Origin: Pseudomonadota bacterium
GTDB taxonomy: Bacteria; CALINM01
Reading direction: 5' to 3'
Assembly (NCBI GenBank): GCA_026415985.1
Contig: JAOAGA010000024.1
Location: 1,525 to 19,719 of the forward strand
Length of the DNA stretch: 18,195 nt
The position numbers and the translations under genes were made by a program. The stretch's first letter is position 1. Each line of letters begins with the position of its first letter. Below the pieces are notes generated by a model. That model was given only the letters and a program-made list of their open reading frames with translations, ran no database searches and was not told the DNA's origin. Of this stretch, positions 1 to 16,984 are shown one piece after another.

Positions 1-2
1 TA

Positions 3-1580
3 CAGATAGTTGCATTAAGTGGCAAGTCTGGCATCCTTCATATTAAAAGCAATAACAGGGTTGGTAAGATATATTTTTATAAAGGCAAGGTCATTAAAGC
101 CTTTTCTGATGCCTATAGGGTTAATTTGGGGGAACTACTTGTAAGAAAAGGGATTGTTTCCGGAGAAACTATAAAAAAGGCCCTTGAAAGACAGAGAGAG
201 TTTAATTATAGAGAAAAGTTAGGAACTATACTTATCAATGATTTTCATATTCCTAAAGAAAAGATAGAAGAGTGTGTTACAGAACTTATAGAAAAAACCG
301 TTTTCAGTCTTTTCTACTGGACAGAGGGAGAGTTTCGTTTTGAGTTAACCGATGAAATAGAGAGCGAAGCAATTAAACTTGATTTACTACAATATGATTT
401 AACTCAGGGAAGGGGGCTCAATCCTCAGTTTTTAGCGATGGAGGGCTCAAGAATACTCGATGAATGCAGGAAAGAAGGGGTAACTCCCCAGGAGTGTTAC
501 GCAGAGTTTGCCAGTCAGGAGGAGCTTCCACAGGAACAAATAAAAACTGAACCATTAGTTGAAATAAGGCCCAAGATAGTATACTTAGACGAGTTTGCCC
601 CTTTTAGAGTCGGTGTTAAAAAACTTTTTGAAGAAGAAGGTTTTGAATGTTATGCCTGTGAATCGGTAGATTCGGCATTGAATTTTATAGAATCTTTAAA
701 TGGTATGGCTACTCTTGTAATTACTTCTTTGATAATACCTAAAACTGACGGATCGGGAATACTTGGCGGACTTGAAATACTAAAAAAATTATCGGACAGA
801 AATAACTTAAAATTTCTTGTTGTCTCAGACTATTCTATAAAAGATGCCGAAGATGAGCTACAAAAACTTAATATCCCCTTAATCAAAAAACCTAAAAAAT
901 CACAGATTAACAGGGATAACGTAAGGGCAGAGTTGGATTTTTATGTAAAAACCTTAAAAAAGACGATAGAAGAGATTTATGAGAAATCCTATGATAAAAC
1001 CGTTTCAGTTGATGAAACTTGGGATAGTGATATTAAAAAAGAGTTTAATATAGTAGAAGAAGATAAGAATCTTATAACTACACCGGGTCTTACAATACTA
1101 AAATCGATGATGCTTGAGCTAACCCAGGCAAGTTCAGGCAATGACGTTATTTTAATGATCCTTAGGTTAGCAAGCGAGATTATGCCAAGAGGAATTGTTT
1201 TTGCAATTAAAAACAATAGGCTTTTTGGTTTGGGACAGTTTGGCCTGGAAAGATTTATAGAGACACCGCAAAGGGTGGTTAAAACACTGGTTTTTGATAT
1301 TAAGGATAAGATTAAAGAAATTATGGATCTTCAGCTACCTTATAAGGGTAAACCTGAAAGGGAAGATTTTTTTATAGAACTGTATAAAAAGATAGGGGTC
1401 GATTTCCCAACGGAGGTTTTTATATCAGTTGTTACTGCCGGTGGAAAACCTGTTATACTTTTTTATGGAGACAATTTACCCGGTAAAAAACCAATTGAAG
1501 ACACCGATGCCTTAGAGATTTTTCTTACTCAGGCGGGGATTACTATGGAACGGCTTTTATTAGAAAAGAAGGTAAAATAG
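3..1580 (+). CDS. PATAN (DUF4388)-degenerate receiver-GAF-like chemosensory protein, 5' end missing
   Basis: The reading frame is open to the window's left edge, so the true start lies upstream. The TTG at 126 is internal: the 41 codons before it continue a DUF4388/PATAN domain (SGILHI ... GKIYFYKGKVIKAFSD). The PATAN region runs to about 365, ending in the typical WTEGEFRFEL, and encloses a tandem segment resembling MshEN motifs at 123-287. A CheY-like receiver follows at about 570-900 (IVYLDEF, LVVSDY, IKKPKK), but the phospho-accepting Asp is Ser (LVITSLIIPKTDG, codon 726-728). The C-terminal part, about 1080-1570, resembles the GAF-like end of other PATAN proteins. It leads the cluster and stops 10 bases before cheY. 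PATAN-receiver proteins such as cyanobacterial PixG/PatA act with CheY/CheA modules on type IV pilus behaviour. A comparable adaptor role here is inference. Domain identity is fairly sure; the exact function is unknown. Confidence 0.85.
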   Translation, partial: QIVALSGKSGILHIKSNNRVGKIYFYKGKVIKAFSDAYRVNLGELLVRKGIVSGETIKKALERQREFNYREKLGTILINDFHIPKEKIEECVTELIEKTVFSLFYWTEGEFRFELTDEIESEAIKLDLLQYDLTQGRGLNPQFLAMEGSRILDECRKEGVTPQECYAEFASQEELPQEQIKTEPLVEIRPKIVYLDEFAPFRVGVKKLFEEEGFECYACESVDSALNFIESLNGMATLVITSLIIPKTDGSGILGGLEILKKLSDRNNLKFLVVSDYSIKDAEDELQKLNIPLIKKPKKSQINRDNVRAELDFYVKTLKKTIEEIYEKSYDKTVSVDETWDSDIKKEFNIVEEDKNLITTPGLTILKSMMLELTQASSGNDVILMILRLASEIMPRGIVFAIKNNRLFGLGQFGLERFIETPQRVVKTLVFDIKDKIKEIMDLQLPYKGKPEREDFFIELYKKIGVDFPTEVFISVVTAGGKPVILFYGDNLPGKKPIEDTDALEIFLTQAGITMERLLLEKKVK

Positions 1581-1590
1581 GGGGTAGGGT

Positions 1591-1965
1591 ATGGAGTCAA
1601 AAAGGATCATGATTGTCGACGACTCAAGCTCTATGAGGGCATTCATTATTGCAAGCCTTCAGGAATTAGGGGATCTTGATTTTTTTGAGGCAAAGACCGG
1701 TTTTGAAGCCCTTAAGGAACTCCCGAAAGGTAATTTTAATCTTGTTATATCTGATATAAATATGCCCGATATAAACGGGCTTGAGCTCTTGAATTTTATA
1801 AAAAAGTCTGATTATTATAAAAATATACCGGTTTTAATGATATCTACAGAAACCAAAGAAGAGGACCTTAAAAGGGCTATAACATTGGGAGCGGATATGT
1901 ATCTGACTAAACCTTTTACCTCCTCAGCAATCGTATCAGCTGTAAAAAAACTTCTTAAGGTATAA
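1591..1965 (+). CDS. cheY: CheY-like single-domain response regulator (first copy)
   Basis: This 124-residue protein is a stand-alone receiver with every phosphorylation residue present: acidic pair D10/D11 (IMIVDDS), phospho-acceptor D55 (VISDINMPD), T86 in LMISTET, and K107 in YLTKPF. There is no output domain, so it should act by protein-protein contact after taking phosphate from CheA. The ATG has a purine-rich GGGGTAGGG just upstream. The gene sits 10 bases after the PATAN gene and 3 bases before cheA, so it is probably the dedicated partner of that kinase. It resembles the second CheY at 11378-11755 in length and in motifs (DINMP, LGA-x-x-YLTKP), which suggests an old duplication. Its target is not identifiable from sequence: flagellar switch, pilus motor, or a phosphate sink. 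Confidence 0.95.
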   Translation: MESKRIMIVDDSSSMRAFIIASLQELGDLDFFEAKTGFEALKELPKGNFNLVISDINMPDINGLELLNFIKKSDYYKNIPVLMISTETKEEDLKRAITLGADMYLTKPFTSSAIVSAVKKLLKV

Positions 1966-1968
1966 GAT

Positions 1969-3927
1969 ATGAAAGAAAATAAATCCCTGAAAGAGTTTAT
2001 CGCAGAGTCAGAGGAACTTGCTGAAAATATAGAAAGAAAGATCTTTGAGCTTTCAGACACTATATCATCAGGTAATGAATCTCCGGATATAATAAACTCT
2101 ATTTTTAGAGATTTCCATTCCCTTAAGGGTATTTCAGGAATGTTCGGGTATTCAAATCTATCAAGGCTTGCCCATGAGTTAGAGAGTTTGCTTGATAAGA
2201 TAAGGCTCGGGAAGGTAAATCTTTCAGAAGAAACCATAGAGCTGATACTTAAAGGGAAGGAACTAATTTTAAACATCATCAAGAAAATATCTGAAAAGGG
2301 GGAGGATGGTTATCCTATTGATGATTATCTTGAAGATATAAACAAATTTTTTACCATGGATACAAAAAAAGAGGTTTCTATAACACAATCTCTTGATTAT
2401 TTAAAAAATGTCCTCACGGAATATGAGGAACACAGACTTTACGAAAATATCAAAAAGGGTAAAAATATATATTCAATTCAGTTTAACTTTAACATCGATG
2501 AGTTTGATGAAAGACTTACAGAAATTACCAATATTCTAAAAACCAAAGGTGAGGTCATAAGCACATTACCAAAGCCTTCCGAAACTCCGGGAAATATAAT
2601 GTTTTCCATTGTGTTCGCCACTGATGAAAAGGAAGATACCCTGCCTGTAAAAAACAGATATAAATATGCCATTGAAAAAATAGGAAACTATGCAAAGCAG
2701 GCTGATAACAGAGAAAAAGAAATCACTTCAGATACACAGACGGAGTTAAAAAGTATTAGTAACACAATAAGAGTTGATATATCAAAGCTTGATTATTTAA
2801 TGAATATTGTTGGCGAAATAGTAACACAAAAATCAGAACTTGCAAGGGTTATTGATGTTATTAAACCCTTGATAAACAACGGAGAGGTAACTCTTAATCT
2901 CTCTAAATCAGTAACCTCCCTTGAGAAAAAGATTAATGAGCTTCAGGAAGCGGTTATGTCCGTTAGAATGGTTCCCTTAAATCAGCTTTTTGAAAAATTA
3001 GAAAGAAACTTAAGAAAAATCTCCCACGAAATTGGTAAAGAGGTAAAGATTACAATTAAGGGTGGCGATACGGAGTTAGATAAGTTTATAGTAGAGGAGT
3101 TGGGTGACCCTCTTATGCATATTATAAGGAACTCTATTGACCATGGAATAGAGCCAAAAGAAGAAAGAATAGCAAAGGGAAAGCCCGAGTACGGACAGAT
3201 AGATTTATTGGCCTATCAGAAAGGTAATAATGTTTATATAGAAGTTAGAGATGATGGGAAAGGCATAGATATAGAAAGAGTCAGACAAAAACTTATAAAT
3301 ATGGGCAGGATTACTCCAGAGCAGGAAGTTTCGGAGGACTATCTTCTTCAGTCCCTATTTCTCCCCGGATTCAGCACAAAAGAAACGGCAAGCGAGCTTT
3401 CAGGCAGAGGTGTCGGACTTGATGTTGTAAAAAGTAATATATCAAGATTAAGAGGAACCGTAGAGATAAAAACTCAAAAAAATCGCGGCACATCTTTTAT
3501 CCTGACACTACCGCTTACTCTAATTATTGTTCAGGCAATAATAATAAAAACATCAAAAAAAATTTTTGCTATTCCTTTAAGTTTCGTTGAAGAGGTAGTT
3601 GAGATTAAATCCACCGATATTATGAAAATTTCCGGTGAAGATACGGTAAACTTAAGAAACTCAGCGTTACCTGTGGTTTATTTAGAAGAGATCTTTTCTT
3701 TCGGAGAAAGGCCTGAGAATATCAAATACCTTGTGGTAATAAGAGCGGGAGAAAGAAAGATTGGACTAATCTCTCAGGAAATAGTTGGACAGGGAGATAT
3801 CGTTATAAAGAATATGGGGAAATTTATAAGAGTTAGAGGGATTGCGGGGGCAACACAAATAGGCTATGGAAAAACAGTTCTTGTTATAGATCCGCCGGGA
3901 ATATTAGAAGAAGTAGTTAAGGTCTAA
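1969..3927 (+). CDS. cheA: Chemotaxis-type histidine kinase CheA
   Basis: This 652-residue cytoplasmic kinase phosphorylates CheY and CheB under control of receptor/CheW arrays. The domain order is canonical. The Hpt (P1) domain occupies residues 1-105, with phospho-site H50 in FHSLKGISGMFG. A P2-like response-regulator-binding segment lies at about 165-245 and the dimerisation helices at about 265-350 (IRVDISKLDYLMNIVGEIV). The ATPase domain holds an N box around N388 (HIIRNSIDHGIEP), a G1 box at 428-432 (DDGKG) and a G2 box at 479-484 (GRGVGL). A C-terminal CheW-like P5 domain covers about 515-650. No receiver is fused to the C terminus, unlike FrzE or PixL-type kinases. The gene begins 3 bases after cheY and ends 3 bases before the AAA+ ATPase gene. 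All catalytic residues seen are intact, so it should be active. Confidence 0.97.
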   Translation: MKENKSLKEFIAESEELAENIERKIFELSDTISSGNESPDIINSIFRDFHSLKGISGMFGYSNLSRLAHELESLLDKIRLGKVNLSEETIELILKGKELILNIIKKISEKGEDGYPIDDYLEDINKFFTMDTKKEVSITQSLDYLKNVLTEYEEHRLYENIKKGKNIYSIQFNFNIDEFDERLTEITNILKTKGEVISTLPKPSETPGNIMFSIVFATDEKEDTLPVKNRYKYAIEKIGNYAKQADNREKEITSDTQTELKSISNTIRVDISKLDYLMNIVGEIVTQKSELARVIDVIKPLINNGEVTLNLSKSVTSLEKKINELQEAVMSVRMVPLNQLFEKLERNLRKISHEIGKEVKITIKGGDTELDKFIVEELGDPLMHIIRNSIDHGIEPKEERIAKGKPEYGQIDLLAYQKGNNVYIEVRDDGKGIDIERVRQKLINMGRITPEQEVSEDYLLQSLFLPGFSTKETASELSGRGVGLDVVKSNISRLRGTVEIKTQKNRGTSFILTLPLTLIIVQAIIIKTSKKIFAIPLSFVEEVVEIKSTDIMKISGEDTVNLRNSALPVVYLEEIFSFGERPENIKYLVVIRAGERKIGLISQEIVGQGDIVIKNMGKFIRVRGIAGATQIGYGKTVLVIDPPGILEEVVKV

Positions 3928-3930
3928 CTT

Positions 3931-4734
3931 ATGTATGAGTTTTTTGGACTAAAAAAGAAACCCTTTTCGAAGACGCCCGATCCGGAGTTTATTTACTTGA
4001 GTAAAAAACATAAAGAAGCTCTTGCAAGGATGCTTTACGGTGCCGAAGAGAAAGAGATTATTATTATCACCGGCGAAATAGGCTGTGGTAAAACAACGCT
4101 CTCCCGGAAATTGCTTGATTCCCTTGATGAAAGTTTTGTACCCTATGTAATAATAAACCCCCGTGGAACGCCTGCAAATTTTTTGAGGTCCATAGTTAAA
4201 GGTTTTTCAAAAAAAGAACCTAAATATTATAAAAAAGATCTTCTTGAGCAGATTTACGAGATACTTTTTAAATTTTACGAAGAGGGGAAAACCCCCATAT
4301 TAATTATTGACGAGGCACAGTTGATAAACTCAAAGGATGTATTTGAAGAGATCAGACTTATAACAAATTTTCAGTTAGATGAAGAAAATCTTATAAGTAT
4401 AATATTATTAGGGCAACCGGAACTTTTAAATAAGATGAAAAAGGGCAACTGGGAGGCTTTCAGGCAAAGGGTAGGTTTTTTTTATAACATAGGACCTCTT
4501 GACGAGTTAGAAACAAAGGAATATCTCATACACCGGTTCAAGATTGCCGGCGGGAAATATAACCCTTTTGAAGAACCTGCAATGTCAGCAATTTACAATA
4601 TCTCGAGGGGTATACCAAGAGTAATAAATCACTTGGCTCAAAACTCATTACTGATTGCATTTGAAAAAGAAAAAAAGTATATTGATAAAAAAATTGTCGA
4701 AGAAGCAGGTAAAGAGTTAATGTATTGGGAATAA
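3931..4734 (+). CDS. ExeA/GspA-like AAA+ ATPase within the chemosensory operon
   Basis: The 267-residue protein opens with the signature of the ExeA/GspA ATPase group (YEFFGLKKKPFSKTPDPEF, then a run like SKKHKEAL). It carries Walker A at 48-55 (GEIGCGKT), Walker B at 123-128 (ILIIDE, followed by AQ), sensor 1 (ILLGQPEL, 158-165) and a sensor-2-like GIPRVIN at 227-233. ExeA partners GspB/ExeB in placing the type II secretin through peptidoglycan; related ATPases include TniB and MuB. This protein ends after the AAA+ core, with no peptidoglycan-binding domain and no transmembrane helix, so it looks cytoplasmic. It sits 3 bases after cheA and 40 before cheW, firmly inside the operon, and is not a standard chemotaxis part. 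It may remodel or position the array or a pilus/secretion target; that is inference. Family assignment is confident, role unknown. Confidence 0.9.
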   Translation: MYEFFGLKKKPFSKTPDPEFIYLSKKHKEALARMLYGAEEKEIIIITGEIGCGKTTLSRKLLDSLDESFVPYVIINPRGTPANFLRSIVKGFSKKEPKYYKKDLLEQIYEILFKFYEEGKTPILIIDEAQLINSKDVFEEIRLITNFQLDEENLISIILLGQPELLNKMKKGNWEAFRQRVGFFYNIGPLDELETKEYLIHRFKIAGGKYNPFEEPAMSAIYNISRGIPRVINHLAQNSLLIAFEKEKKYIDKKIVEEAGKELMYWE

Positions 4735-4774
4735 TTTATAAGTATCGGTTCATATATAAAAGGAATAAGAGAAA

Positions 4775-5401
4775 ATGGATATTGCTGAGATAAGAAAAAA
4801 GGCAAAGAAAAAAAAGACAGAAGAAAAAGAGCCTCTTAAGTTGCAGGAAATTGAGGAAGAAAAAGTTTCACAGCAACTACCTGTGGTATCTGAGCCGGAA
4901 AAAACAGATGCTATAGAACAGAGCTTTGATTTTGTCGATGAAGACTTACTATACAAAAAATTAGCCAAAAAGGAGTCTGAAGATGCCATAGAGTATCTAT
5001 GCTTTAAGCTGGGGGAAGAAGAGTATTGTTTGGAAGTTTCTATTGCCAACGAGATTATAAAACCAAAAGAAATTACAGAGGTCCCCAAATCGCCTGATTT
5101 TATTCTTGGTGTGTTTTCAATCAGGGGAGAGGTATTACCTCTTTTTGACATAAAAAAACTTCTCAATATAAAAGAACAGACTGTATCAATAAGGCCAAGA
5201 TTTATTATAATAAATCTCAACAACGATAAAGTGGGTATTTGTGTTGATGAGATAACCGCCATCAGGAAATTATCGGCAAAAAATATAGAACAGACACCTA
5301 TAAACATACAGGGAGCCAAAAAGGAGTTTATTAAAGGCATAGCAATAATAGATGGTAAGACTTTAAGAATACTTGATATTGAAAAAATTATGAGTTTTTA
5401 A
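4775..5401 (+). CDS. cheW: CheW-like coupling protein with long charged N-terminal tail
   Basis: The 208-residue protein has a C-terminal CheW domain (about 71-208) with the conserved core GVFSIRGEVLPLFDIKKLL at 112-130, which includes the invariant Arg-Gly. CheW links CheA to receptors. The first 70 residues are unusual: a Lys-rich start (KKAKKKKTEEKEP), then a Glu/Pro/Gln-rich stretch, probably disordered. Typical CheW proteins are about 150-170 residues and lack this tail. The tail could be a tether, a localisation signal or a docking site for the neighbouring ATPase; none of this can be shown from sequence. The start ATG follows an AAGGAATAAGAG stretch after a 40-base gap, the largest in this half of the operon. 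One base separates its stop from the next cheW. Confidence 0.92.
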   Translation: MDIAEIRKKAKKKKTEEKEPLKLQEIEEEKVSQQLPVVSEPEKTDAIEQSFDFVDEDLLYKKLAKKESEDAIEYLCFKLGEEEYCLEVSIANEIIKPKEITEVPKSPDFILGVFSIRGEVLPLFDIKKLLNIKEQTVSIRPRFIIINLNNDKVGICVDEITAIRKLSAKNIEQTPINIQGAKKEFIKGIAIIDGKTLRILDIEKIMSF

Positions 5402-5402
5402 T

Positions 5403-5858
5403 ATGGATAAGTTTCTGACTATCAGACTTAATGAGGAGTTTTTTGCTTTAAAACTAAAGGAAATAAGGGAAGTTTTGCCCTATTCCAGTCCCAGCCCGGT
5501 ACCAAATATGCCTGCATATATATCTGGACTAATCCATCTGAGAGGATTTTTTCTTCCTGTTATAGATATGAAAAAGATACTTTTTTTGCCCGAAGAAAAT
5601 AAAAAAAGGAAAAAAAAGATTGTAGTTGTATCCTTTTTGAAAAGAGTTGTCGGTATCAGCATAGACGATGCAGAAGATATTATAACCGTTGAAGATAATC
5701 AAATAATACCTCCGCCAAACCTGATTTCAAATATAAACTCAAACTATTTTTCCGGCGGTTTCTATTTATATGATAAGGTCATTCTTATCCTTGATTTAAA
5801 AAAGATATTTACAGATATTAACCTTATCAAAGAACTTACTAAGGAGAGGGCATCTTGA
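5403..5858 (+). CDS. cheW: CheW-like coupling protein (second copy)
   Basis: At 151 residues this is essentially a bare CheW domain. It opens directly with FLTIRLNEEFFALKLKEIREVL and contains the conserved GLIHLRGFFLPVIDMKKIL segment at 42-60, with the Arg-Gly pair kept. It should couple CheA to receptor tips or fill CheW-only rings in the array. It starts one base after the previous cheW stops, and its own stop overlaps the TTG start of the zinc-finger receiver gene by four bases, which suggests translational coupling. The two CheW proteins differ clearly in sequence outside the core. They may serve different receptors, or one may belong to an accessory complex; that is inference. Confidence 0.95.
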   Translation: MDKFLTIRLNEEFFALKLKEIREVLPYSSPSPVPNMPAYISGLIHLRGFFLPVIDMKKILFLPEENKKRKKKIVVVSFLKRVVGISIDDAEDIITVEDNQIIPPPNLISNINSNYFSGGFYLYDKVILILDLKKIFTDINLIKELTKERAS

Positions 5859-6757
5859 TAATCTCTTGCCCTACCTGTCAGACAAAATATAAGCTGAATT
5901 TAATTGATTCACCTAAAAAAGAGGTTTTTGTAACCTGCAAAAAATGTAACCATAGGTTTTCTTTAAACCTTAAAAACGAAGAAAAAACAGAAAATATCAA
6001 GATTCTCGTTGCCCACGATGATTTCAGAGTAATAAATATTATCAAAAAATTACTTGAAAAGATGAGCTTTAATATTATAACTGCAGATAACGGTATGTCT
6101 GCATATAGCGTCATAGAAAATGAAAAACCTGAGATTGCTATTATCGATGTGGCCTTACCGGGAATGTTTGGTTTTGAGCTCTGCGAAAAGATTAAAAATA
6201 ACCCTATGACAAAAAATACGAAGATTATTCTTGTTGCTTCAATTTATGACAGAACAAGATATAAAAGGAAACCTCAAAATTTATACGGTGCTGATGATTA
6301 TATAGAAAAACATCATATTCCCGATGAGCTAATTACAAAGATTCTCAATCTGACATCTGCACCGATAAGGTCAAAAGAAGTTGTTAACGAAATTAAAAAG
6401 GATATTCCGAAAGATAATCTTAAAGATAACAGAGATATATTGCTTGAAGACGCTAATATTAACAAAATTATAGATAAAGAGAGAGAAACCATTAAGCATG
6501 CTGAAAACAAGTATATAGCAAACACAAATAGTGTCGACGAAAAGGCGAAAAGATTAGCAAGGCTCATAGTTTCCGACATAGCCCTATATAATCAGGAGAT
6601 TATAAAAAAAGTTACTATAAATAATTATTCTGAACTACTTAAATTAGATGTGACTGACGGAATAAGCCATCTTAAATCAAGAGTTCCAGAGATATCTTAC
6701 AAGGCAGAAGAGTATATTCATAACGCTTTTATAGAGCTCCTAAAAAAGGAGATTTAA
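5855..6757 (+). CDS. Zinc-finger (MJ0042-type) plus receiver-domain protein
   Basis: The start is TTG at 5855, supported by an AAGGAG Shine-Dalgarno at 5841-5846 and by the four-base overlap with the preceding cheW. The 300-residue product begins with a four-cysteine finger, C5-x2-C8 and C28-x2-C31 (SCPTCQTKY, VTCKKCNHRF), like the MJ0042 zinc-ribbon family. A receiver domain follows at about 48-165: D55/D56 (LVAHDD), phospho-acceptor D98 (IAIIDVALPG), S129, and K152 in YIEKHH. It looks phosphorylatable, with a slightly extended basic loop after S129 (YDRTRYKRKPQ). The last 130 residues are charged and helical, with no domain I recognise. The finger's ligand is unknown; it could bind protein or nucleic acid. 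It lies between the CheW genes and the HEAT gene, so it is probably a CheA target or regulator. Confidence 0.88.
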   Translation: MIISCPTCQTKYKLNLIDSPKKEVFVTCKKCNHRFSLNLKNEEKTENIKILVAHDDFRVINIIKKLLEKMSFNIITADNGMSAYSVIENEKPEIAIIDVALPGMFGFELCEKIKNNPMTKNTKIILVASIYDRTRYKRKPQNLYGADDYIEKHHIPDELITKILNLTSAPIRSKEVVNEIKKDIPKDNLKDNRDILLEDANINKIIDKERETIKHAENKYIANTNSVDEKAKRLARLIVSDIALYNQEIIKKVTINNYSELLKLDVTDGISHLKSRVPEISYKAEEYIHNAFIELLKKEI

Positions 6758-8638
6758 ATGGATCCTAACATTGAGAGAGAAGAAAAGATTAAAAAAAAGA
6801 TAAACGAGTTAAGAAAAAACTTTACCCTTAACGAGGAAGTAAAAAAATTTATCTATGATTGTTTAGCCGATGAAAGCTGGAGAGTAAGAAAAGATGCGGT
6901 TTCTTTAACCATAGAAAATCCTGAAAATGAGATCTTAGATATTTTAATCAATGGCTTAGCTTCGGAAGATAACGCTGGATTAAGAAATGCCTGTCAGGAA
7001 GCCCTTACAAAAATCGGAGAGAGGACCATAAATAAACTCATAGACTCATTCAATAAATCAGATAGGGATGTAAGAAAGTTTATAATTGATATCGTAGGAG
7101 ATATTGGCAAAACGGAGTATTGTGATTTTTTAATATCTGCTCTTAACGATAATGATGAAAATGTTGTAATTTCAGCCTGTGAAAATTTAGGAAAGTTAAG
7201 GAGCGAGAAGGCAATTGAGCCTCTGCTGAAAAAACTTGATAAAAACAATGAATGGTTATCTTTTGTTATTATAGAGGCGTTATCACAGATAGGAAAACCT
7301 TTCGATGCAGAGAAGATATTGTCACTGTGGGAAGTAAACCAGCTGAGAAAGCCAATACTTGATATGATAACTATTTTCGATGAGAAAACCGCAAAAGAGC
7401 TGTTAGCCAAAGCTTTTTGTGACAGAGCCTTTTTTGTTCAGGAAAATGCCAGTAAAGCCCTCTTTAGGGTTATATCCCTCAAGCCAGAAAGGCTGAAAGA
7501 TTTTCAAAACACCTTAGAAGATATTATCGTTTTTAACTCTAACTATAAAAAACTACTCAACGGTAAAAGAGAAGATGAGTTAATATTTGCTTTACTCACA
7601 TTCATATCAAAAGATGCGGGATTTTTTCAGGAATTCATGGAAAAGGCGGGCGATGAAGCACTGGAGTTTTTTGGTTCCCTTGGGGAGTATGCTGATTACA
7701 AGAATAAAGATCTGATAATAAAAAATATTAAAAATCATGAAGGGAAAAAAGAGGCCTATCTTGTATATCTAATTGGGTTATTCAGGATTGAAGATGGCAT
7801 ACCCTATCTTAAGGATTTGTGTAACGCTAACTATGGACACACGAGACAGGCAGTAGCCTTTTCTTTTGGGAAATTATCTTCCGAAGAGGCGGTAGACTGT
7901 CTTTTCAAACTTATAGATGATAAGTATAAAGATGTAAGGGAAGAGGCGGTCAAATCCCTTTCTAGGAAGATAACAAAAGACAACTTTCCTGAAGAGATGG
8001 CATTAAAAATCTTTGAAAGTGGTGATAAAGACAAAATAACCGCCATTTTGTCATTAATGGGAAGGATTGGTTATTTTAACGAAAAAATCATAACAAAAGC
8101 ACTTAGGGATATCAATCCAGAGGTGAGGGCTAAGGCAATTAAGTTAATATCGGAGTTTCGGTTAAAGGATTTCCTGAATGACGTATTATTGCTTTTGACT
8201 GATGAAAATGAAGAAGTTCGTTATGAAGCAATATTATGCACCGGTAATATTATCGAAGATGAAGAGATGGCAGAATTGTTAGTTCCTTTTCTTGACGATG
8301 AAAGCAATAATATTAAAAAGGCGACAATTCGCAGTATCTATAATATATCAAAGGATTTATTAAAAAAATTTGAAGACATAATCTTTAAAAACATATCCCC
8401 GATAATCTATCTTTATTTAATTGAACTTCTTCGTGAAGGCATGTCCTTTGATATTGAGAAGATGTTTAAAATTGCCGAAAATTTTGATGACTATGATATA
8501 TATCGTGAGCTAATATCCTCTCTTATCGAAAAGGGAGATACAGAAAGCGCTCGTCAGATTCTTAAAAGATTAGAAAGTGAAAAAGGTTTTAAGGGACTTC
8601 TTGATGAGTTTTCCCATCTGCTGGAGGAATCATTCTGA
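6758..8638 (+). CDS. HEAT-repeat scaffold protein in chemosensory operon
   Basis: This 626-residue protein is built almost entirely of HEAT/PBS-lyase-like helical repeats. Repeat units recur about every 30 residues, with the pattern D-x-x-x-x-VR-x-x-A and a following G or L, for example ESWRVRKDAVS, KDVREEAVKSL, NPEVRAKAIKLI and NEEVRYEAIL. There is no signal peptide, membrane segment or catalytic motif, so a cytoplasmic protein-binding solenoid is the best reading. The ATG directly follows the previous stop, with AAGGAG at 6747-6752, and its stop overlaps the cheR start (TGATG). From memory, HEAT-repeat proteins occur in some myxobacterial Che clusters (Cpc7 of the Che7 system); I could not check this. 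It may scaffold the receivers, CheR or the AAA+ ATPase; that is inference. Confidence 0.88.
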   Translation: MDPNIEREEKIKKKINELRKNFTLNEEVKKFIYDCLADESWRVRKDAVSLTIENPENEILDILINGLASEDNAGLRNACQEALTKIGERTINKLIDSFNKSDRDVRKFIIDIVGDIGKTEYCDFLISALNDNDENVVISACENLGKLRSEKAIEPLLKKLDKNNEWLSFVIIEALSQIGKPFDAEKILSLWEVNQLRKPILDMITIFDEKTAKELLAKAFCDRAFFVQENASKALFRVISLKPERLKDFQNTLEDIIVFNSNYKKLLNGKREDELIFALLTFISKDAGFFQEFMEKAGDEALEFFGSLGEYADYKNKDLIIKNIKNHEGKKEAYLVYLIGLFRIEDGIPYLKDLCNANYGHTRQAVAFSFGKLSSEEAVDCLFKLIDDKYKDVREEAVKSLSRKITKDNFPEEMALKIFESGDKDKITAILSLMGRIGYFNEKIITKALRDINPEVRAKAIKLISEFRLKDFLNDVLLLLTDENEEVRYEAILCTGNIIEDEEMAELLVPFLDDESNNIKKATIRSIYNISKDLLKKFEDIIFKNISPIIYLYLIELLREGMSFDIEKMFKIAENFDDYDIYRELISSLIEKGDTESARQILKRLESEKGFKGLLDEFSHLLEESF

Positions 8639-9486
8639 TGTGGAATATCTCTGGAGGCCCCCAGTTAAGCAATGAAGAGTTTATTAACCTTAGAAATTTC
8701 ATAAAGGAAAAATGTGGAATATTCTTTGATGAAAACTCTAAATATATTCTTGAAAAACGTTTATCCTCAAGACTTGTTGACTTAAAAATTGAATCATTTA
8801 AAGAGTATCTGTTTTTTTTAAAGTTCGATAAAAGACGGGAAGAAGAGTTACTTCTTATCTATGACATACTTACTACTAATGAAACCTATTTTTTTAGGGA
8901 AGAGTACCAGTTAAAGGCCTTTTCTGATGAGATACTGCCTGAAATTTTATCTAAAAAGGGCGATTCAAAAAGTTTACGGATCTGGTCAGCAGGCTGTTCA
9001 ACTGGAGAAGAGGCTTATACTATAGCAATGATACTTTATAACAAAAAAGACATTATGGAAAATTATAAGATCAATATCTTTGCAAGTGATATAAGCCAGA
9101 GATGTCTTAAGATTGCCAGAGAGGGTGTTTATGGTCAGAACTCCTTTAGAGGAGAAAAGGATGATTACAAAAACATCTTTTTTACCTTGACGGAGGATAA
9201 AAAATACAGAATCAAAGATGAGATAAAAAGGTTAGTCAGTTTCGGACATCTTAACCTGCTTGATAAAAGACAGATAGCCATGTTGCCGTCAATGGATATT
9301 GTTTTTTGCAGGAATGTCTTGATATATTTCGATAATGAATCCCGTAAGATTGTCATAGACAATTTTTATAATAAACTGACTAACGGTGGTTTTCTCCTGT
9401 TGGGGCATGCGGAATCACTGATTAATGTTTCAACAGCCTTTATTATGAGACACCTGAAAAATGATTTGGTTTATCAAAAACCCTGA
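8638..9486 (+). CDS. cheR: Chemoreceptor glutamate methyltransferase CheR
   Basis: CheR transfers methyl groups from S-adenosylmethionine to receptor glutamates during adaptation. The 282-residue protein has the usual two parts: an N-terminal helical domain (about 12-80) and a methyltransferase domain. Diagnostic motifs are NETYFFRE (81-88), the SAM-binding WSAGCSTGEE (116-125), the acidic D151 in FASDIS, and the late motif FCRNVLIYF (223-231). Length is normal for the family, and no TPR or other extension is fused. The ATG overlaps the HEAT stop by one base (TGATG) and is preceded by GGAGG within CTGGAGGAA, so the start is secure. With CheB next door it makes a complete methylation pair, which implies an MCP outside this window. 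Confidence 0.97.
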   Translation: MWNISGGPQLSNEEFINLRNFIKEKCGIFFDENSKYILEKRLSSRLVDLKIESFKEYLFFLKFDKRREEELLLIYDILTTNETYFFREEYQLKAFSDEILPEILSKKGDSKSLRIWSAGCSTGEEAYTIAMILYNKKDIMENYKINIFASDISQRCLKIAREGVYGQNSFRGEKDDYKNIFFTLTEDKKYRIKDEIKRLVSFGHLNLLDKRQIAMLPSMDIVFCRNVLIYFDNESRKIVIDNFYNKLTNGGFLLLGHAESLINVSTAFIMRHLKNDLVYQKP

Positions 9487-9498
9487 TATAATTATATT

Positions 9499-10515
9499 AT
9501 GAAAAAGATATTAATAATTGACGATTCTCCCTTTACCAGAAAAATCCTGAAAGAGATGATAGAGGAAGACCCTGAATTTAAGGTAATTGATACCGCAGCT
9601 AATGGTGTAGAGGGGCTTAAAAAGGCTTTAACCTTAAAGCCAGACTTAATTACAGTTGATCTGGAAATGCCGGAGATGGATGGTTTTAGCTTCTTAAGAT
9701 TCATGATGGCACAACAACCCATACCAACCATTGTCGTGTCAAGCCTACACTCATCAGAGAATGTCTTCAAGGCTCTTGAGATGGGTGCGGTAGATTTTGT
9801 AATGAAACCTACGCAAAGTGCTTCTTATCAGCTCTTGGAAATCAAAAAGGATCTGCTTTTTAAAATCAGGGCAGCATTAATTAGCAATATTCAAATTAAA
9901 AAACCCGAAAAAACAAAAAAGGTTTCATACCCAAAGAATAACTTTAGGATTATTGCTATAGGTTCATCTACCGGTGGGCCACAGGCGATAACAAGAATAG
10001 TTTCAAGCTTACAGGGCAATCTGAATGCACCGATTTTAATAGCCCAACACATGCCCGAGGGTTTTACTAAGGTTTTTGCAGAGAGGCTTAATAAAAGTTG
10101 TGCCCTGAATGTATCAGAAGTAAAACAGGATGAGATAATAGAACCGGGCAATGTCTATATTGCCCCCGGTGGAAGTCATTTACGGGTAAAAGAGAAAAAT
10201 GGCAATCTTTTTACGGAAATAGTTGAAAAAAAGAATAAAGATATTTATATTCCATCTGTCAATGTTCTTTTCGAGTCTCTTGTCCCCTATTCTAACAGAT
10301 GCATCGCCATAATCCTGACAGGCATGGGGTCCGATGGAAAAAACGGGGCTATTAAGCTAAAAGAGGGAGGAGCAAAAATTTGGGCTGAGTCAAAAGAGAG
10401 TGCAGTTATATTTGGAATGCCTCAGGAGGTTATAAAAGCAGGTATTGCTGACAAAATCCTTCCTTTATGGGATATTCCTTTGCATATTATTAAAGAAGTG
10501 GGTATTATAGATTGA
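9499..10515 (+). CDS. cheB: Chemotaxis methylesterase/deamidase CheB
   Basis: This 338-residue protein reverses CheR methylation and can deamidate receptor glutamines. The N-terminal receiver (1-125) keeps D8/D9, phospho-acceptor D54 (LITVDLEMPEMDG), and K103 in VMKPT. The esterase domain (about 148-338) keeps the catalytic triad: S157 in IGSSTGGPQA, H184 in AQHMPEGF, and D279 in LTGMGSDG. Phosphorylation by CheA should activate it, giving adaptation feedback. The gene lies 12 bases after cheR. I see no convincing Shine-Dalgarno before the ATG, only AT-rich sequence (GATATAATTATATT), although the N terminus MKKILIIDDS fits the family exactly. Poor initiation could keep CheB low relative to CheR. 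No C-terminal receptor-binding tail is evident. Confidence 0.97.
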   Translation: MKKILIIDDSPFTRKILKEMIEEDPEFKVIDTAANGVEGLKKALTLKPDLITVDLEMPEMDGFSFLRFMMAQQPIPTIVVSSLHSSENVFKALEMGAVDFVMKPTQSASYQLLEIKKDLLFKIRAALISNIQIKKPEKTKKVSYPKNNFRIIAIGSSTGGPQAITRIVSSLQGNLNAPILIAQHMPEGFTKVFAERLNKSCALNVSEVKQDEIIEPGNVYIAPGGSHLRVKEKNGNLFTEIVEKKNKDIYIPSVNVLFESLVPYSNRCIAIILTGMGSDGKNGAIKLKEGGAKIWAESKESAVIFGMPQEVIKAGIADKILPLWDIPLHIIKEVGIID

Positions 10516-10560
10516 AAAAATTTTTTATTAATTTTATTATAGCATTAAAAGGAAAAAAGG

Positions 10561-11364
10561 ATGGTTAAAGAGATCGGAGAAGATTTTTTTTATAACCTTA
10601 AAAAGGCTGTAGAACACGCCAAAAACCTTATAAATGAAAACACCAAGCTCAAACTTGAAATAAAAAAGCTCAAAGAAGAGCTTGAGGCAAGAAAAGATGA
10701 AATTACTCAATCATCTCACAGTGAATGTTATAAAAAAATAAATGATTTAGAAGAAAAAAACTCAGAGTTTAACAAAAGAATTTCAGAACTGGAAGAAGAA
10801 AACAAAAATTTTGCTACCAAGTATGTTGAGCTTGAAAGTGAGAATAACAATCTTGCCAACCTGTATGTGGCAAGTTTTCAGCTCCATTCTACTCTTAACT
10901 TTAAAGAAGTTGTTCAGATTATAATGGAGATAGTAATTAACCTGATTGGTGCAGAAGTTTTTGTCTTATATCTGCTCGATGAAAAGACAAATGAGCTTAC
11001 TCCCATAGCGACAGAAGGGATAGAGATTGAGAAAACAAACAGCATAAAACTTGGGAAAGGAGTAGTCGGAAGAAGTGCAAAAACAGGTGAAAATTATTTC
11101 AGTGAACTAATTCCCATCTACGATGAGTTTAATGAAGATGCCCCTATAGCTTGTATACCTTTAAAAATCAAAGAGCACACAATCGGTGTCATTGCCATAT
11201 ATAAATTATTAATGCAAAAAGAACAATTTACAGAACTTGATTATGAGTTATTTACTCTCTTGGCTGGACATGCAGCAACGGCAATTTTCAGCTCAAAGCT
11301 CTACACGGAATCGGAACGTAAATTATCTACCATTCAGGGATTTATTGAACTGCTGACAAAATAA
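10561..11364 (+). CDS. Coiled-coil plus GAF-domain sensory protein
   Basis: The 267-residue protein starts with about 85 residues of heptad-like, Lys/Glu/Leu-rich sequence (residues 15-100, for example KLKLEIKKLKEELEA and RISELEEENKNF) predicted as a coiled coil. A GAF domain follows (about 108-245: LNFKEVVQIIMEIVINLIGAE, GKGVVGRSAKTGE, IPLKIKEHTIGVIAIYK). It ends SERKLSTIQGFIELLTK with no kinase, cyclase or output domain. GAF domains bind cyclic nucleotides, small ligands, haem or iron-sulphur sites; no cofactor-specific motif is clear here. There are no membrane helices, so it is cytoplasmic. It sits 45 bases after cheB, behind an A/G-rich AAAAGGAAAAAAGG, and 13 bases before the second cheY. 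It could be a soluble input to the array. It lacks the MCP hairpin signature and is not itself a receptor. Confidence 0.88.
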   Translation: MVKEIGEDFFYNLKKAVEHAKNLINENTKLKLEIKKLKEELEARKDEITQSSHSECYKKINDLEEKNSEFNKRISELEEENKNFATKYVELESENNNLANLYVASFQLHSTLNFKEVVQIIMEIVINLIGAEVFVLYLLDEKTNELTPIATEGIEIEKTNSIKLGKGVVGRSAKTGENYFSELIPIYDEFNEDAPIACIPLKIKEHTIGVIAIYKLLMQKEQFTELDYELFTLLAGHAATAIFSSKLYTESERKLSTIQGFIELLTK

Positions 11365-11377
11365 AAAGGAGATTAAG

Positions 11378-11755
11378 ATGGCTGGTATAAACATATTAGT
11401 TGTTGAAGACTCACCCACAATGAGACAGCTAATAGTTTTTGCTTTAAAAAGACTTAAAGATGTCAGTGTAGTTGAGGCAAATGATGGTGTTGATGGCCTG
11501 AAAAAACTTTCGGCTCAGAAATTTGATTTGCTGATTGCTGATATTAATATGCCTATTATGGATGGGTTAAAGCTTGTTAGTCTTGTAAGGCAGGATCAGA
11601 AGTATAAAGACATGCCCATAATAATTGTTACAACAGAAGGAGCAGAGGAGGACAAAAAAAGAGGCCTTACCTTAGGTGCAAATGCCTATTTAACTAAACC
11701 TGTTCAGACAAATCAATTAATCTCTACCGTAAAAGATCTTCTGCGTATTTCATAA
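11378..11755 (+). CDS. cheY: CheY-like single-domain response regulator (second copy)
   Basis: A 125-residue stand-alone receiver with a working phosphorylation site: acidic pocket E10/D11 (LVVEDSPTMRQ), phospho-acceptor D55 (IADINMPIMDG), T85/T86 (IVTTEG) and K107 (YLTKPV). The E-D pair in place of D-D is common among active receivers. A good AAAAGGAG precedes the ATG. It is the last recognisable chemosensory gene of the cluster and lies directly after the coiled-coil/GAF gene. Having two CheY proteins with one CheA is typical where one is the output and the other a phosphate sink or a branch to another target. Which is which cannot be told here. The next gene, a rubredoxin-like gene, begins 12 bases downstream. 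Confidence 0.95.
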   Translation: MAGINILVVEDSPTMRQLIVFALKRLKDVSVVEANDGVDGLKKLSAQKFDLLIADINMPIMDGLKLVSLVRQDQKYKDMPIIIVTTEGAEEDKKRGLTLGANAYLTKPVQTNQLISTVKDLLRIS

Positions 11756-12626: not shown

Positions 12627-13586
12627 ATGAACTACATTCTTGAATTCCTTTCCGATTTTATAAAAGAATTTGTATTTCTATTACCTTATTTCTTTGCTGG
12701 TGTTGCCATAGAAGCTCTGATAAGAACATTTAAGTGGCACATAAAGATAAAAAACACCATTAAAAAATATGGAATTATTTCTATTTTCATTGCAACAGCC
12801 CTTGGATTAATAAGCCCTCTCTGTGCCTGTGGTGTTTTACCCTTGTCTTTGGGACTTCTTTTCGGAGGTGTTCCCTTTTCTACCGTAATGGCACTTATTA
12901 TTACTTCTCCTCTTATGAGTCCTGCAGGTTATACATTAACTCAGTTTGAGTTGGGAACTGAATGGGCCATAGTAAAGCTTATATCGGCAGGATTTATGGG
13001 AATCTATGCGGGATTAGTTACCTACTTTCTTGAAGATAAATATTTTAAAGAATACCAGATAATGAAGCTTGACAGTATCCCCCATGATGCAGATTTTCAT
13101 GATCCCGATTTCCCCATAGATGAACTGAGATGTAGCTGTCATAGGCAGTTAAGTCACAGAGTAGAAGAGAAAACAAGAAGCAAATTTCTATTATTTTTAG
13201 CCAAATTCTATGAAGGGGCGATGAGAATCGGAAAATATTTGCTCATAGGAATCTTTTTTGAAATACTGATTTCTAAATATGTTCCTTCCGAATGGGTAGG
13301 TAACTATTTAAGCAAAGGAAATCCTTTAAACATACTAATGGTAATTATTGTATCAATTCCCTTGTACGTGAATCAGATTTCAGCTTCTGCAATTCTTTAT
13401 GGATTACTTGAGAAAGGTATTAGTAAAGGAGCGGGATTGGCATTTTTAATAGGTGGTCCCGTAACAGCAATACCTGTAATGGCGGTTTTTTTTACATTAT
13501 TTAAGAAAAGAGTGTTTTTCTACTATCTGTTTATAGCGGTGAGCGGAACTTATATTCTTAGTCTAATTTATCAGTTTTTCTTTTGA
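12627..13586 (+). CDS. ArsP_1/DUF318-family membrane permease, probable metal or metalloid exporter
   Basis: A 319-residue integral membrane protein with about eight hydrophobic segments. The repeat halves show the family marks: SPLCACGVLPLSLGLLFGG (63-81, with C66 and C68), ALIITSPLMSPAGY (89-102), and, in the second half, LAFLIGGPVTAIPVM (271-285). These place it in the ArsP_1 permease group, which includes methylarsenite exporters and the SO_0444-type Cu/Zn exporters. The central loop (about 146-185) carries possible metal ligands: H153, H158, C169, C171, H172 and H177. No ArsR or MerR regulator is adjacent. The ATG lacks a clear Shine-Dalgarno, but no better start exists upstream. Its 3' end overlaps the convergent NlpC/P60 gene by 24 bases. 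Substrate is uncertain. Confidence 0.87.
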   Translation: MNYILEFLSDFIKEFVFLLPYFFAGVAIEALIRTFKWHIKIKNTIKKYGIISIFIATALGLISPLCACGVLPLSLGLLFGGVPFSTVMALIITSPLMSPAGYTLTQFELGTEWAIVKLISAGFMGIYAGLVTYFLEDKYFKEYQIMKLDSIPHDADFHDPDFPIDELRCSCHRQLSHRVEEKTRSKFLLFLAKFYEGAMRIGKYLLIGIFFEILISKYVPSEWVGNYLSKGNPLNILMVIIVSIPLYVNQISASAILYGLLEKGISKGAGLAFLIGGPVTAIPVMAVFFTLFKKRVFFYYLFIAVSGTYILSLIYQFFF

Positions 13587-14540
13587 CAAATTATCATAGG
13601 AAGCGGACTGGAGAGTGAAAAGCCTTTTTGCTCCTACAAAATATCTTTTTACATAGGGGCTGTCAAGACTTGAAACAATCACACCTTTTCCCTTTCTGGC
13701 TGCATGAATATACATATTATCACCTATATATATTCCTACATGATTAATTCTGTTTCTCTTGGCGAAAAAAATCAAATCTCCTTCTCTTAACTCCTCTAAA
13801 GAGACATCTGACCCCAATGTATATTGTTCCCGGGAGGTTCTTGGTAAGTTGATATTAACTTCTCTGAATACTCTTCTTACAAAGGCTGAACAGTCTAATG
13901 ACGCTATGCTGTCACCACCATATTTATATGTTGCGCCCACATAATCAAGGGCACTGTTGATTAACTTTTTAAGATCATCGTCTCTTAAACTATAAAGATA
14001 CTCCTGCTTTTTGCTATCAAAATCAGCGAAATTTTCTGAATTGATATCTTCATCACCATCAAAATCATCTTCCTGAATTGATGAAGTTACAGCGCTGTTT
14101 TCCTTTATTTTCTCAAAATTTTTAATTTCTTCTTTAGCGAGGGAATATTTTTTTGAGGATCTGGAAGCAGTATTTTTATAACCATTATTTTCTTTTGCCA
14201 TATTAACATTAGGAATTAAAATAACCTGCCCGGGTTTCAGCATCTTTGGATTTATATTTTTGTTTAGTGAGAGTATATCTTTTTCTGAAACTCCCCTTAC
14301 TTTAGCAATCTTTCTTATGGTATCGCCTTTTCTGATTTTATAACTTACAGTATTTTCTGATTTTTTCCTTGCAACCTGCCCTTTTTTGCCTGCTGTTTTT
14401 TTGGCTATATTGGTTTTTGCAGTTGATTTTTGAGAAATATTTTTCCTTTTTTGATTTTGCTCAGAAAAAACGCAAGTTATTGAAAACAATAAATAAAAAC
14501 AAATAATTATAAAGCTAAAACAACATTTTATTAACGCCAT
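13563..14540 (-). CDS. Secreted LysM-NlpC/P60 peptidoglycan endopeptidase
   Basis: I use the ATG at 14538-14540, which gives a standard signal peptide (MALIKCC, a hydrophobic core, likely cleavage near VFS/EQ). A TTG at 14577-14579 would add 13 residues; neither start has a clear ribosome site. Numbering from the TTG form: a Lys-rich linker (43-75), a LysM peptidoglycan-binding domain (78-122, IRKGDTIRKIAKVRGV ... LKPGQVILIP), an acidic low-complexity linker (150-200), then an NlpC/P60 domain (about 205-325) with catalytic C230 (LDCSAF), H280 (HVGIY) and H292 (IHAAR). It should cut stem-peptide bonds in the cell wall outside the inner membrane. It follows nspC on the same strand by 48 bases and may be co-transcribed with it. 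Confidence 0.93.
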   Translation of the reverse strand: MALIKCCFSFIIICFYLLFSITCVFSEQNQKRKNISQKSTAKTNIAKKTAGKKGQVARKKSENTVSYKIRKGDTIRKIAKVRGVSEKDILSLNKNINPKMLKPGQVILIPNVNMAKENNGYKNTASRSSKKYSLAKEEIKNFEKIKENSAVTSSIQEDDFDGDEDINSENFADFDSKKQEYLYSLRDDDLKKLINSALDYVGATYKYGGDSIASLDCSAFVRRVFREVNINLPRTSREQYTLGSDVSLEELREGDLIFFAKRNRINHVGIYIGDNMYIHAARKGKGVIVSSLDSPYVKRYFVGAKRLFTLQSASYDNLSKEKLIN

Positions 14541-14588
14541 GATGATTGATATTAAAGCAAATAACTTCTTGAATTGCAAGAAAAAAAA

Positions 14589-15764
14589 TTATGAAAGCCT
14601 ATCTTTATAGTCCTTATATCCAAATCTTCTTACAACCTTTGTTTCTTTTTTTTCATGGTTAAAGAGGATTAAGGATGGTAGTCTGATACCATTGAAGGTT
14701 GTATTCTTAACAAAGGAATAAAGTGCCATATCAAGAAAGACAAGCCTATCTCCCCTTTTTAACGGCTCGGGAAATGAGTAGTCACCAATAATATCTCCTG
14801 CCAAACAGGATATTCCACCTAATCTATAGGTATATGGAAACTCATCAGGCTCACCAGCACCTATTATTTTAGGTTTATATGGCATTGCTAATACATCGGG
14901 CATATGGGTTTCTGCTGAGGTGTCAAGTATGGCAATCTCCATGCCGTTGTCAACAATGTCAAGAACAGTTGATACAAGAACTCCTGCATTAAGAACCACC
15001 GCTTCACCGGGTTCGAGATATACTGTTATGTTATTATATTTTTTTCTGAAACTTTTAATAGTCTCGATAAGTAATTGCAAATCATAATCTTTTCTTGTGA
15101 TATGATGGCCACCGCCAAAATTAACCCATTTAAGGTGGGGGATATATTTACTAAATCTTTCCTCGAAGGAGTTAAGGACCCTCACTAAAACATCTGCATT
15201 TTGTTCACAAAGGGCATGAAAATGCAAGCCACTAATGAGTGAGAGTTCAACTTTTTCCATATCTTCAGATTGTAAGCCGAACCTTGAACCGGGGAGACAG
15301 GGATTATATAAATCAGTTTCAACCTCAGAGTGACCAGGATTAACCCTAACACCTATCTCAATATTTTTTTTAATTGACTTAACAACAGGATAAAACTTAT
15401 TAAGCTGGTAAACTGAGTTAAATATTATAAAATCAGAATACTTTGCAACTTCAACAATATCATTATCCGAATAGGCAGGGGCAAAGGTATGCACCTCTTT
15501 CCTAAACTCCTCGAATCCTAATCGTGCTTCTATGGGACCACTGGCACATACCCCTTTAAGATATTTATTTATTATGGGAAAGGCAGACCACATGGCAAAG
15601 GCTTTTAAAGCAAGAAGTATCTTGGCACCAGTCTCGTTCTGAACATAATCTAAAACCTGACAGTTTCTTTCTATTACGTTCTCGCTGATAAGATAACAAG
15701 GCGTTTCAACCTTATCTGTTACATCTTTTGGAAAATCAATCAAAAACTCACCGTTTTTTATCAT
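14589..15764 (-). CDS. nspC: Carboxynorspermidine/carboxyspermidine decarboxylase
   Basis: NspC is a PLP-dependent fold-III decarboxylase that makes norspermidine or spermidine from the carboxy precursor. This 391-residue protein has the usual length. It shows the PLP-binding lysine K54 in LLALKAFAMWS, the phosphate-site stretch WVNFGGGHHI, the EPGEAVV motif, and the late active-site cysteine region GGISCLAGDIIGDYSF. It lies two bases downstream of the carboxynorspermidine synthase gene, an arrangement seen in many bacteria that use this route in place of S-adenosylmethionine decarboxylase. A ribosome site before the ATG is weak, so translational coupling to the upstream gene is likely. Whether the product is spermidine or norspermidine cannot be read from the sequence. 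Confidence 0.95.
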   Translation of the reverse strand: MIKNGEFLIDFPKDVTDKVETPCYLISENVIERNCQVLDYVQNETGAKILLALKAFAMWSAFPIINKYLKGVCASGPIEARLGFEEFRKEVHTFAPAYSDNDIVEVAKYSDFIIFNSVYQLNKFYPVVKSIKKNIEIGVRVNPGHSEVETDLYNPCLPGSRFGLQSEDMEKVELSLISGLHFHALCEQNADVLVRVLNSFEERFSKYIPHLKWVNFGGGHHITRKDYDLQLLIETIKSFRKKYNNITVYLEPGEAVVLNAGVLVSTVLDIVDNGMEIAILDTSAETHMPDVLAMPYKPKIIGAGEPDEFPYTYRLGGISCLAGDIIGDYSFPEPLKRGDRLVFLDMALYSFVKNTTFNGIRLPSLILFNHEKKETKVVRRFGYKDYKDRLS

Positions 15765-15766
15765 AA

Positions 15767-16984
15767 TTAATCAGGTAAATATCCTTTGAACTCTTCAATA
15801 TGCCAGGGCAGACCGTATTTATTTAAAGCTTCCATAAACGGATCAGGGTCAAGCTGTTCCATATTATAAACCCCTTTCCCTATCCATACCTTATTTAATA
15901 TAAGCATAGCACCTATCATGGCAGGGACACCGGTTGTATAGGATATTGCCTGTGCTTTTAACTCTCTATAGGCTTCCTCATGGTCACAGACATTATAGAT
16001 ATAGATTTTTTTTCTTTTACCATTTTTAATGCCATCAAATACACAACCAATTACTGTTTTACCTTTATAATTTTCACCCAAACTTGCTGGGTCGGGGAGA
16101 ACCGCTTTCAAGAATTTTAAAGGAACTATCTTTTTGCCTTCATATTCCACCTCATCAATTCTTGTCATACCAACGTTTTTAAGAACTTTGAGATGATTTA
16201 TATAGTTATCAGAAAAGGTCATCCAGAATCTGATTCTCTTCAGTCCTTTTATGTTTTTCACCAGAGATTCTAACTCTTCATGATACAAGAGATAACTCTC
16301 CCGTGGACCAACAACAGGGTAGTTGAAGGTAAAGTGGATTGAGTTTTCATCAAGAATAGGAGGTGTCTCAATAAACTTTCCGTTTGCCCAGTGTCTGACT
16401 ACCTGAGTTACCTCTCTGATATTTATTTCAGGGTTGAAGTTTGTGGCGAAAGGATGGCTATGAGAGCCCGCATTGCAGTCAAGAATGTCTATATATTCAA
16501 TTGTATCAAAGAGATGTTTCTGTGCATAGGCACAGAAAACATTTGTAACACCGGGATCAAAACCACAGCCTAAAAGACCAAAAATCCCCTTTTTTTTATA
16601 ACTATCATCAAAGGCCCACTGATATTTGTATTCAAAATGAGGATTATCCGGTGGTTCGTAATTTGCGGTATCAAGATAATGAACACCAGTTCTGAGGCAG
16701 GCTTCCATTATCGAAAGATCTTGATAAGGCAGAGCCAGATTAATTACCAAATCAGGTTTATATTTGTTGATTAAATCGACAAGCTCATTTGTATTATCTG
16801 CGTCAACCCTGGCAACTTTAATCTTTCTTTTATATTGCTCTTCTATTTCCTTCTGAATCTTTTTGCATTTTTCAAGGGTTCTGCTTGCAAGAACAATCTC
16901 CTCGAAAACTGATGGTAATTGGGCACATTTTTTTGTTGTAACATTACTAACCCCCCCTGCTCCTATGATTAAAACCTTCCCCAT
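15767..16984 (-). CDS. Carboxynorspermidine synthase (saccharopine dehydrogenase-like)
   Basis: This 405-residue reductase joins a diamine (putrescine or diaminopropane) to aspartate semialdehyde with NADPH, giving carboxyspermidine or carboxynorspermidine for NspC. The N-terminal Rossmann fold begins KVLIIGAGGVSNVTTKKCAQ with the GxGGV nucleotide motif at 8-12. The family marks VLASRTLEKC, DLVINLALPYQD and YLDTANYEPP follow. It belongs to the Lys1/saccharopine dehydrogenase family; linkage to nspC two bases away decides the assignment over lysine metabolism. Start ATG 16982-16984 has a good AGGAGG about five bases upstream and lies about 28 bases below the -10 box of a consensus promoter. 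It is the first gene of the operon. Confidence 0.93.
   Translation of the reverse strand: MGKVLIIGAGGVSNVTTKKCAQLPSVFEEIVLASRTLEKCKKIQKEIEEQYKRKIKVARVDADNTNELVDLINKYKPDLVINLALPYQDLSIMEACLRTGVHYLDTANYEPPDNPHFEYKYQWAFDDSYKKKGIFGLLGCGFDPGVTNVFCAYAQKHLFDTIEYIDILDCNAGSHSHPFATNFNPEINIREVTQVVRHWANGKFIETPPILDENSIHFTFNYPVVGPRESYLLYHEELESLVKNIKGLKRIRFWMTFSDNYINHLKVLKNVGMTRIDEVEYEGKKIVPLKFLKAVLPDPASLGENYKGKTVIGCVFDGIKNGKRKKIYIYNVCDHEEAYRELKAQAISYTTGVPAMIGAMLILNKVWIGKGVYNMEQLDPDPFMEALNKYGLPWHIEEFKGYLPD

Follow-up and report, generated by a model that had tools for sequence, protein, structure and literature searches.

The window analysed here, an 18,195-nucleotide stretch (G000:C78:1525-19719), carries a chemosensory operon of a widely conserved type described under the names "beta group", Esn and Che8, an assignment that is well supported, and one of its receivers is fused to a domain that is, judged by sequence comparison, homologous to Myxococcus RomX. 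We consider it somewhat better than an even bet (about 55%) that the operon encodes a chemosensory array serving surface behaviour that depends on type IV pili, in which the zinc ribbon-receiver-RomX protein would act on an MglA-family GTPase. The cluster class itself is known, if little studied; the new and testable part is the receiver-RomX fusion. We found no description of such a fusion in a che cluster in the open-access literature, and its novelty is provisional because the literature search was confined to open-access publications.

The operon and its distribution

The G000 assembly comprises 1.57 Mb in 161 contigs and is 84% complete. As the first-pass annotation of the window had described, positions 1-11755 of the plus strand hold a tight array of twelve co-directional genes, with intergenic gaps of -4 to 45 bp, and domain searches with Pfam and NCBIfam models agree with the earlier labels for all twelve products. 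The array begins with a PATAN (DUF4388) protein that also contains a pseudo-receiver and a conserved C-terminal domain (1..1580; DUF4388 4.7e-23; truncated at the 5' end by an assembly gap) and continues with CheY1, an intact receiver whose motif DINMPDINGLEL is invariant in orthologues (1591..1965; PF00072 2.5e-26), a CheA with Hpt, dimerisation, HATPase and CheW domains in which the Hpt histidine and the N-box are conserved (1969..3927), an ExeA-type AAA ATPase (3931..4734; AAA_22 3.8e-26; TIGR03015 233 bits, below cut-off), CheW1 (4775..5401; PF01584 2.7e-37) and CheW2 (5403..5858; PF01584 4.3e-32). These are followed by the zinc ribbon-receiver-RomX fusion protein (5855..6757), a HEAT-repeat protein with syntenic orthologues (6758..8638; HEAT_2 1.9e-42), CheR (8638..9486; PF01739 9.7e-59), CheB (9499..10515; PF01339 4.7e-59), a coiled-coil GAF protein (10561..11364; GAF_3 2.5e-15) and CheY2, likewise an intact receiver with an Asp that is invariant in orthologues (DINMPxMDGLKLV; 11378..11755; PF00072 2.8e-29). 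Neither an MCP nor CheC, CheX or CheZ is encoded within the twelve-gene cluster, as had been noted before, and domain searches revealed no DNA-binding output domain in it.

Extension of the stretch upstream, a step that the first-pass annotation had proposed, placed the true start of the PATAN gene 223 bp beyond window base 1 (L006:1302), adjoining priA; window base 1 itself lies inside this gene and directly 3' of an N gap. Just upstream of window base 1 (L006 1302-1530), QIVALSGKSGILHIKSNNRVGKIYF is present on both sides of the N gap, and this duplication at the 5' end of the PATAN gene is an assembly artefact. Downstream of the operon, past a gap of 871 bp, the window contains genes for an ArsP-type permease and a LysM-NlpC/P60 cell-wall hydrolase (12627-14579), adjacent minus-strand genes resembling those for a saccharopine dehydrogenase-like protein and a PLP decarboxylase (14589-16984), which likely belong to the carboxynorspermidine (polyamine) pathway, and a partial IS-type transposase with an rve integrase core that extends past the window end (17230-18195).

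The combination of genes, several of which had been called non-standard, is not unique. The common order PATAN-REC/CheY/CheA/ExeA/CheW/CheW/(MCP)/zinc-REC/HEAT/CheR/CheB/GAF/CheY, in which the MCP gene is optional, is found in about 12 families, at loci that are complete or interrupted by contig ends and that show some gene losses; a chance assembly of these genes is rejected on this recurrence. The cluster is present in all three sampled genomes of the phylum of G000 (G000, G001 and G002), and the zinc-receiver gene occurs in 9/9 genomes of one other phylum and in 23 of the 386 genomes of a broad sample (E <= 1e-22), a count that is not an upper bound since the sub-threshold genome G016 still has MCP/zinc-REC/HEAT. 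In G134, G108 and G372, the match is confined to the zinc receiver or to a plain receiver, without che neighbours. A search of plasmids with the zinc receiver returned generic receivers only, and named genome contigs queried with CheA yielded just distant relatives.

The synteny and class comparison that had also been proposed led to published clusters in Geobacter and Myxococcus, with which we file the operon, with good support, by gene content and order and not by sequence orthology. The genes cheA, cheW, cheR and cheB occur together with no mcp in the cluster, and both the CheA-ATPase-CheW order of Esn and the CheY-CheA-CheW-CheW-x-x-CheR-CheB-CheY order of Che8 are found. Geobacter Esn shares the cheA-ATPase-cheW order (in G. 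sulfurreducens GSU2222, GSU2221 and GSU2220, respectively; PMC5585712) and the presence of cheR and cheB without an mcp in the cluster (PMC2577667, PMC5585712). An unpublished knock-out of the Geobacter beta-group cluster affected the extracellular matrix (PMC2577667), and deletion of the CheW or the CheA gene impairs growth of G. sulfurreducens on electrodes (PMC5585712). The Che8 cluster of M. xanthus (MXAN_4751-4759; PMC3945109) likewise shows, by locus tag, the order given above with two CheY, two CheW and no MCP, whereas the ExeA and GAF genes present here are not listed for Che8. The publications consulted report no function for Che8.

Receptors encoded outside the cluster

That CheR and CheB are encoded without a receptor had been read as an anomaly. 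The cluster indeed lacks one, but this is not anomalous, because relatives have an MCP in the cluster and G000 has MCPs of the same type elsewhere in its genome. In many relatives, an MCP gene is located between CheW2 and the zinc-ribbon receiver, immediately before the latter; G000-G002, family f109 and some others lack it at this junction. Following the suggestion to inspect the genome for MCPs, we found four in G000 outside the cluster (on contigs C85, C142, C22 and C99), the first three of which are orphans, while the fourth lies within a separate CheR-MCP-CheW-CheY-CheA-CheC-CheD cluster. The earlier statement that a single CheA is present is thus correct for the operon but not for the genome, in which a second CheA is accompanied by an MCP, CheC and CheD.

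The length of the receptor downstream of the signalling tip separates these proteins: it amounts to 228-229 aa in the C85 and C142 receptors, 193 in C22 and 158 in C99, and the in-cluster receptors of relatives have 228 aa, up to 245, with one exception that carries an extra C-terminal domain. As assigned by this length, the in-cluster MCPs and two of the orphans fit the 64H class and not 40H. In a maximum-likelihood tree of the signalling core, C99 and nine others form a clade with 100/95 support, and all eight in-cluster MCPs as well as the three G000 orphans fall outside of it. Other receptor-less genomes (G001, G002, G118, G253, G379 and G157) also possess orphan MCPs, several of them of the long type. 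Hence, orphan long MCPs of the same signalling type elsewhere in the genome provide a well-supported explanation for the missing receptor and for how such clusters can exist without a receptor gene of their own.

The C85 orphan adjoins a gene for a PhnD-type binding protein and the C142 orphan one for an ABC_sub_bind binding protein; in G102, the in-cluster chemoreceptor (L077 10529-13411) carries a PhnD-type phosphonate-binding domain as a C-terminal fusion. The orphan receptors of 64H length, some of them coupled to periplasmic binding proteins, would pair with the CheA of the cluster via CheW1 and CheW2, and CheR and CheB would serve the adaptation of this array. In Geobacter Esn, the receptor EsnA is similarly encoded outside the cluster, and two-hybrid assays show interaction of the orphan MCP GSU1704 with both the Esn CheW and CheA (PMC5585712); EsnA is reported to be of the 40H class, whereas the receptors described here are of 64H length.

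Receivers and the RomX-like domain

A profile of the zinc-receiver orthologues matches PDB 8zna (labelled RomX) with an E value of 5.8e-18 over 73 residues, a region that includes A-RLAR-I-SDI-LYN, and the RomX-like segment of G000 (6536..6733) used as a single query finds the same entry in phmmer at 1.4e-7. This domain at the C-terminal end of the zinc receiver had escaped the first-pass annotation, and no Pfam model exists for it. A model made from it was found in every in-cluster orthologue that is complete at the C-terminus and matched no other protein type among all fetched loci, and the architecture of zinc ribbon, receiver and RomX is kept across the clusters. Single-sequence structure prediction of the zinc-receiver protein gave a mean pLDDT of 54.5, which is too low for a fold search.

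In M. xanthus, the RomR receiver binds RomX, which in turn binds MglA (PMC12719032); RomX has been described as an MglA GEF (PMC10329633), and RomRX is called an effector by work as cited in PMC12719032. The protein studied here resembles this pair in that a receiver and a homologous RomX domain would act together, but it differs in that both are joined with a zinc ribbon in one polypeptide inside a che operon, where M. xanthus has two separate proteins with RomX as a small stand-alone protein recruited by RomR. Tentatively, at odds rather short of even, we propose that the fusion may constitute a direct one-protein bridge from the chemosensory kinase to MglA in many families.

The phosphorylatable Asp is invariant in the orthologues of CheY1, CheY2 and CheB. 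For the PATAN receiver, orthologues of which were identified in other genomes by alignment, G000 and G002 carry Ser at the phospho-site, the nearest other phylum has Glu or Asn there, and more distant families have Asp. Since Ser replaces the phosphorylated Asp, this receiver cannot be phosphorylated here and therefore does not compete for CheA phosphate. The view that four receivers besides CheB compete for CheA was thus overstated: four are present, three of which carry the phosphorylatable Asp in the G000 cluster. The zinc receiver has Asp at this site in G000 and Ser, Asn or Glu in families f109 and f167, so that phosphorylation cannot be its switch there. We propose that CheA would phosphorylate CheY1, CheY2, CheB and the zinc-ribbon receiver, whose RomX domain would then engage an MglA-family GTPase and thereby set the pole of pilus formation.

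Among the matches listed for the PATAN protein profile against PDB, all are receivers, and its C-terminal domain has no Pfam match. A helical insert of the PATAN domain (126..275) contains a weak MshE-like c-di-GMP motif (NF053729 35.5 bits, cut-off 38); binding of c-di-GMP by the insert was rejected as a candidate, the score being below the cut-off and the motif not being kept in distant orthologues. In the Pix systems of Synechocystis, a PATAN-receiver gene is followed by a CheY gene, and the likeness of our array to these operons, remarked on earlier, is borne out by its first two genes and by the pilus context. The DUF4388-type PATAN domain with a pseudo-receiver, together with CheR/CheB, ExeA, HEAT and RomX, sets the array apart from the Pix systems. 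The PATAN protein likely provides a second point of contact with the pilus motor or the polarity module; in Synechocystis, PilB is bound by PATAN regulators (Han 2022, as cited in PMC10519157), and PATAN genes are occasionally located near mglA/mglB (PMC4316618).

Pili, polarity GTPases and other possible outputs

The first-pass annotation had proposed an alternative, possibly pilus-directed signalling complex and a survey of the genome for pilus and flagellar genes. PilT scores over its curated cut-off in 24/24 zinc-receiver-positive genomes versus 308/386 in the whole sample, and full-length FlhA is present in 4/24 versus 172/386. Both associations are modest, with Fisher p values of ~0.01 (PilT) and ~0.02 (FlhA) for the 20 sample genomes with che neighbours, uncorrected for relatedness. 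G000 itself has a pilB-pilT-pilC-pilS-pilR operon on contig C83, and FlhA was not found in this 84% complete assembly. Hence, the pilus-directed part of the proposal gains from these data, but not its appeal to receptor absence as an anomaly. FlhA was seen in G001 (C183) and not in G000 or G002; either flagella vary within the phylum or the assemblies lack them.

MglA-family genes are present in the clade as well. Pairs of mglB and mglA were found in G001 and G002, both family-mates of G000, and in six other cluster genomes; a canonical mglBA pair was not detected in G000 at a strict threshold and 84% completeness. G000 does encode an extended MglA-like GTPase (L149 1036-2055) with a counterpart in G002 (L151 1465-2499), both with a C-terminal extension of ~150 aa and both located between genes for a conserved protein that lacks Pfam matches and for a GAF protein. 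MglA-like GTPases of greater length are encoded in G022, G102, G253 and G367 as well. None of the cluster loci contains mglA. As MglA and PilT are both widespread, their co-occurrence with the cluster is weak evidence. In Myxococcus, MglA-GTP acts with SgmX to position the pilus motor, PilB (PMC7519303).

The published output of Geobacter Esn is a diguanylate cyclase and not MglA, and an unlikely alternative, though the one that survives best, is that the main target of CheA signalling here is a receiver-diguanylate cyclase whose gene lies elsewhere, with c-di-GMP driving matrix and biofilm formation and RomX serving as a scaffold without MglA. The genetics and two-hybrid data on EsnABCD (PMC5585712), the attribution of the esnB effect on cGAMP signalling to EsnD c-di-GMP (PMC8835794), 12 GGDEF matches in the G000 genome and the weak motif in the PATAN protein are consistent with such an output; however, no diguanylate cyclase is encoded in the cluster or among the shared cluster genes of relatives, and the strictly kept RomX domain would be left without explanation. 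Quite improbable is a pilus-unrelated array for transcriptional or envelope-stress control, with receivers that act on the ExeA ATPase and the HEAT scaffold: the ATPase resembles PEP-CTERM/secretion-associated ATPases and the HEAT solenoid has no assigned partner, but a DNA-binding output domain is lacking in the cluster and the PilT association argues against it. Loss of the receptor gene from an otherwise ordinary flagellar chemotaxis operon is very improbable and disfavoured, since, even though CheA, CheW, CheR, CheB and CheY are all standard and one family-mate (G001) has FlhA, full-length FlhA is missing from 20/24 genomes including G000, a separate MCP-CheA-CheC-CheD cluster exists in G000, additional conserved genes are present that flagellar operons do not have, and the gene order recurs across families.

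It is only partly understood how chemosensory arrays act on cell polarity and type IV pili, and for Myxococcus an explanation is still lacking for the step that leads from Frz to RomR/RomX-MglA. If the array indeed directs pilus-based behaviour through an MglA-family GTPase, a link of the kind that is unexplained for Frz would be built into a che operon. As one widespread operon brings together the kinase, a pair of CheY proteins and the fusion of receiver and RomX, the step from kinase to polarity becomes directly testable. This extends to Geobacter sulfurreducens, whose Esn genes apparently correspond to those of the operon and have an electrode-colonisation phenotype.
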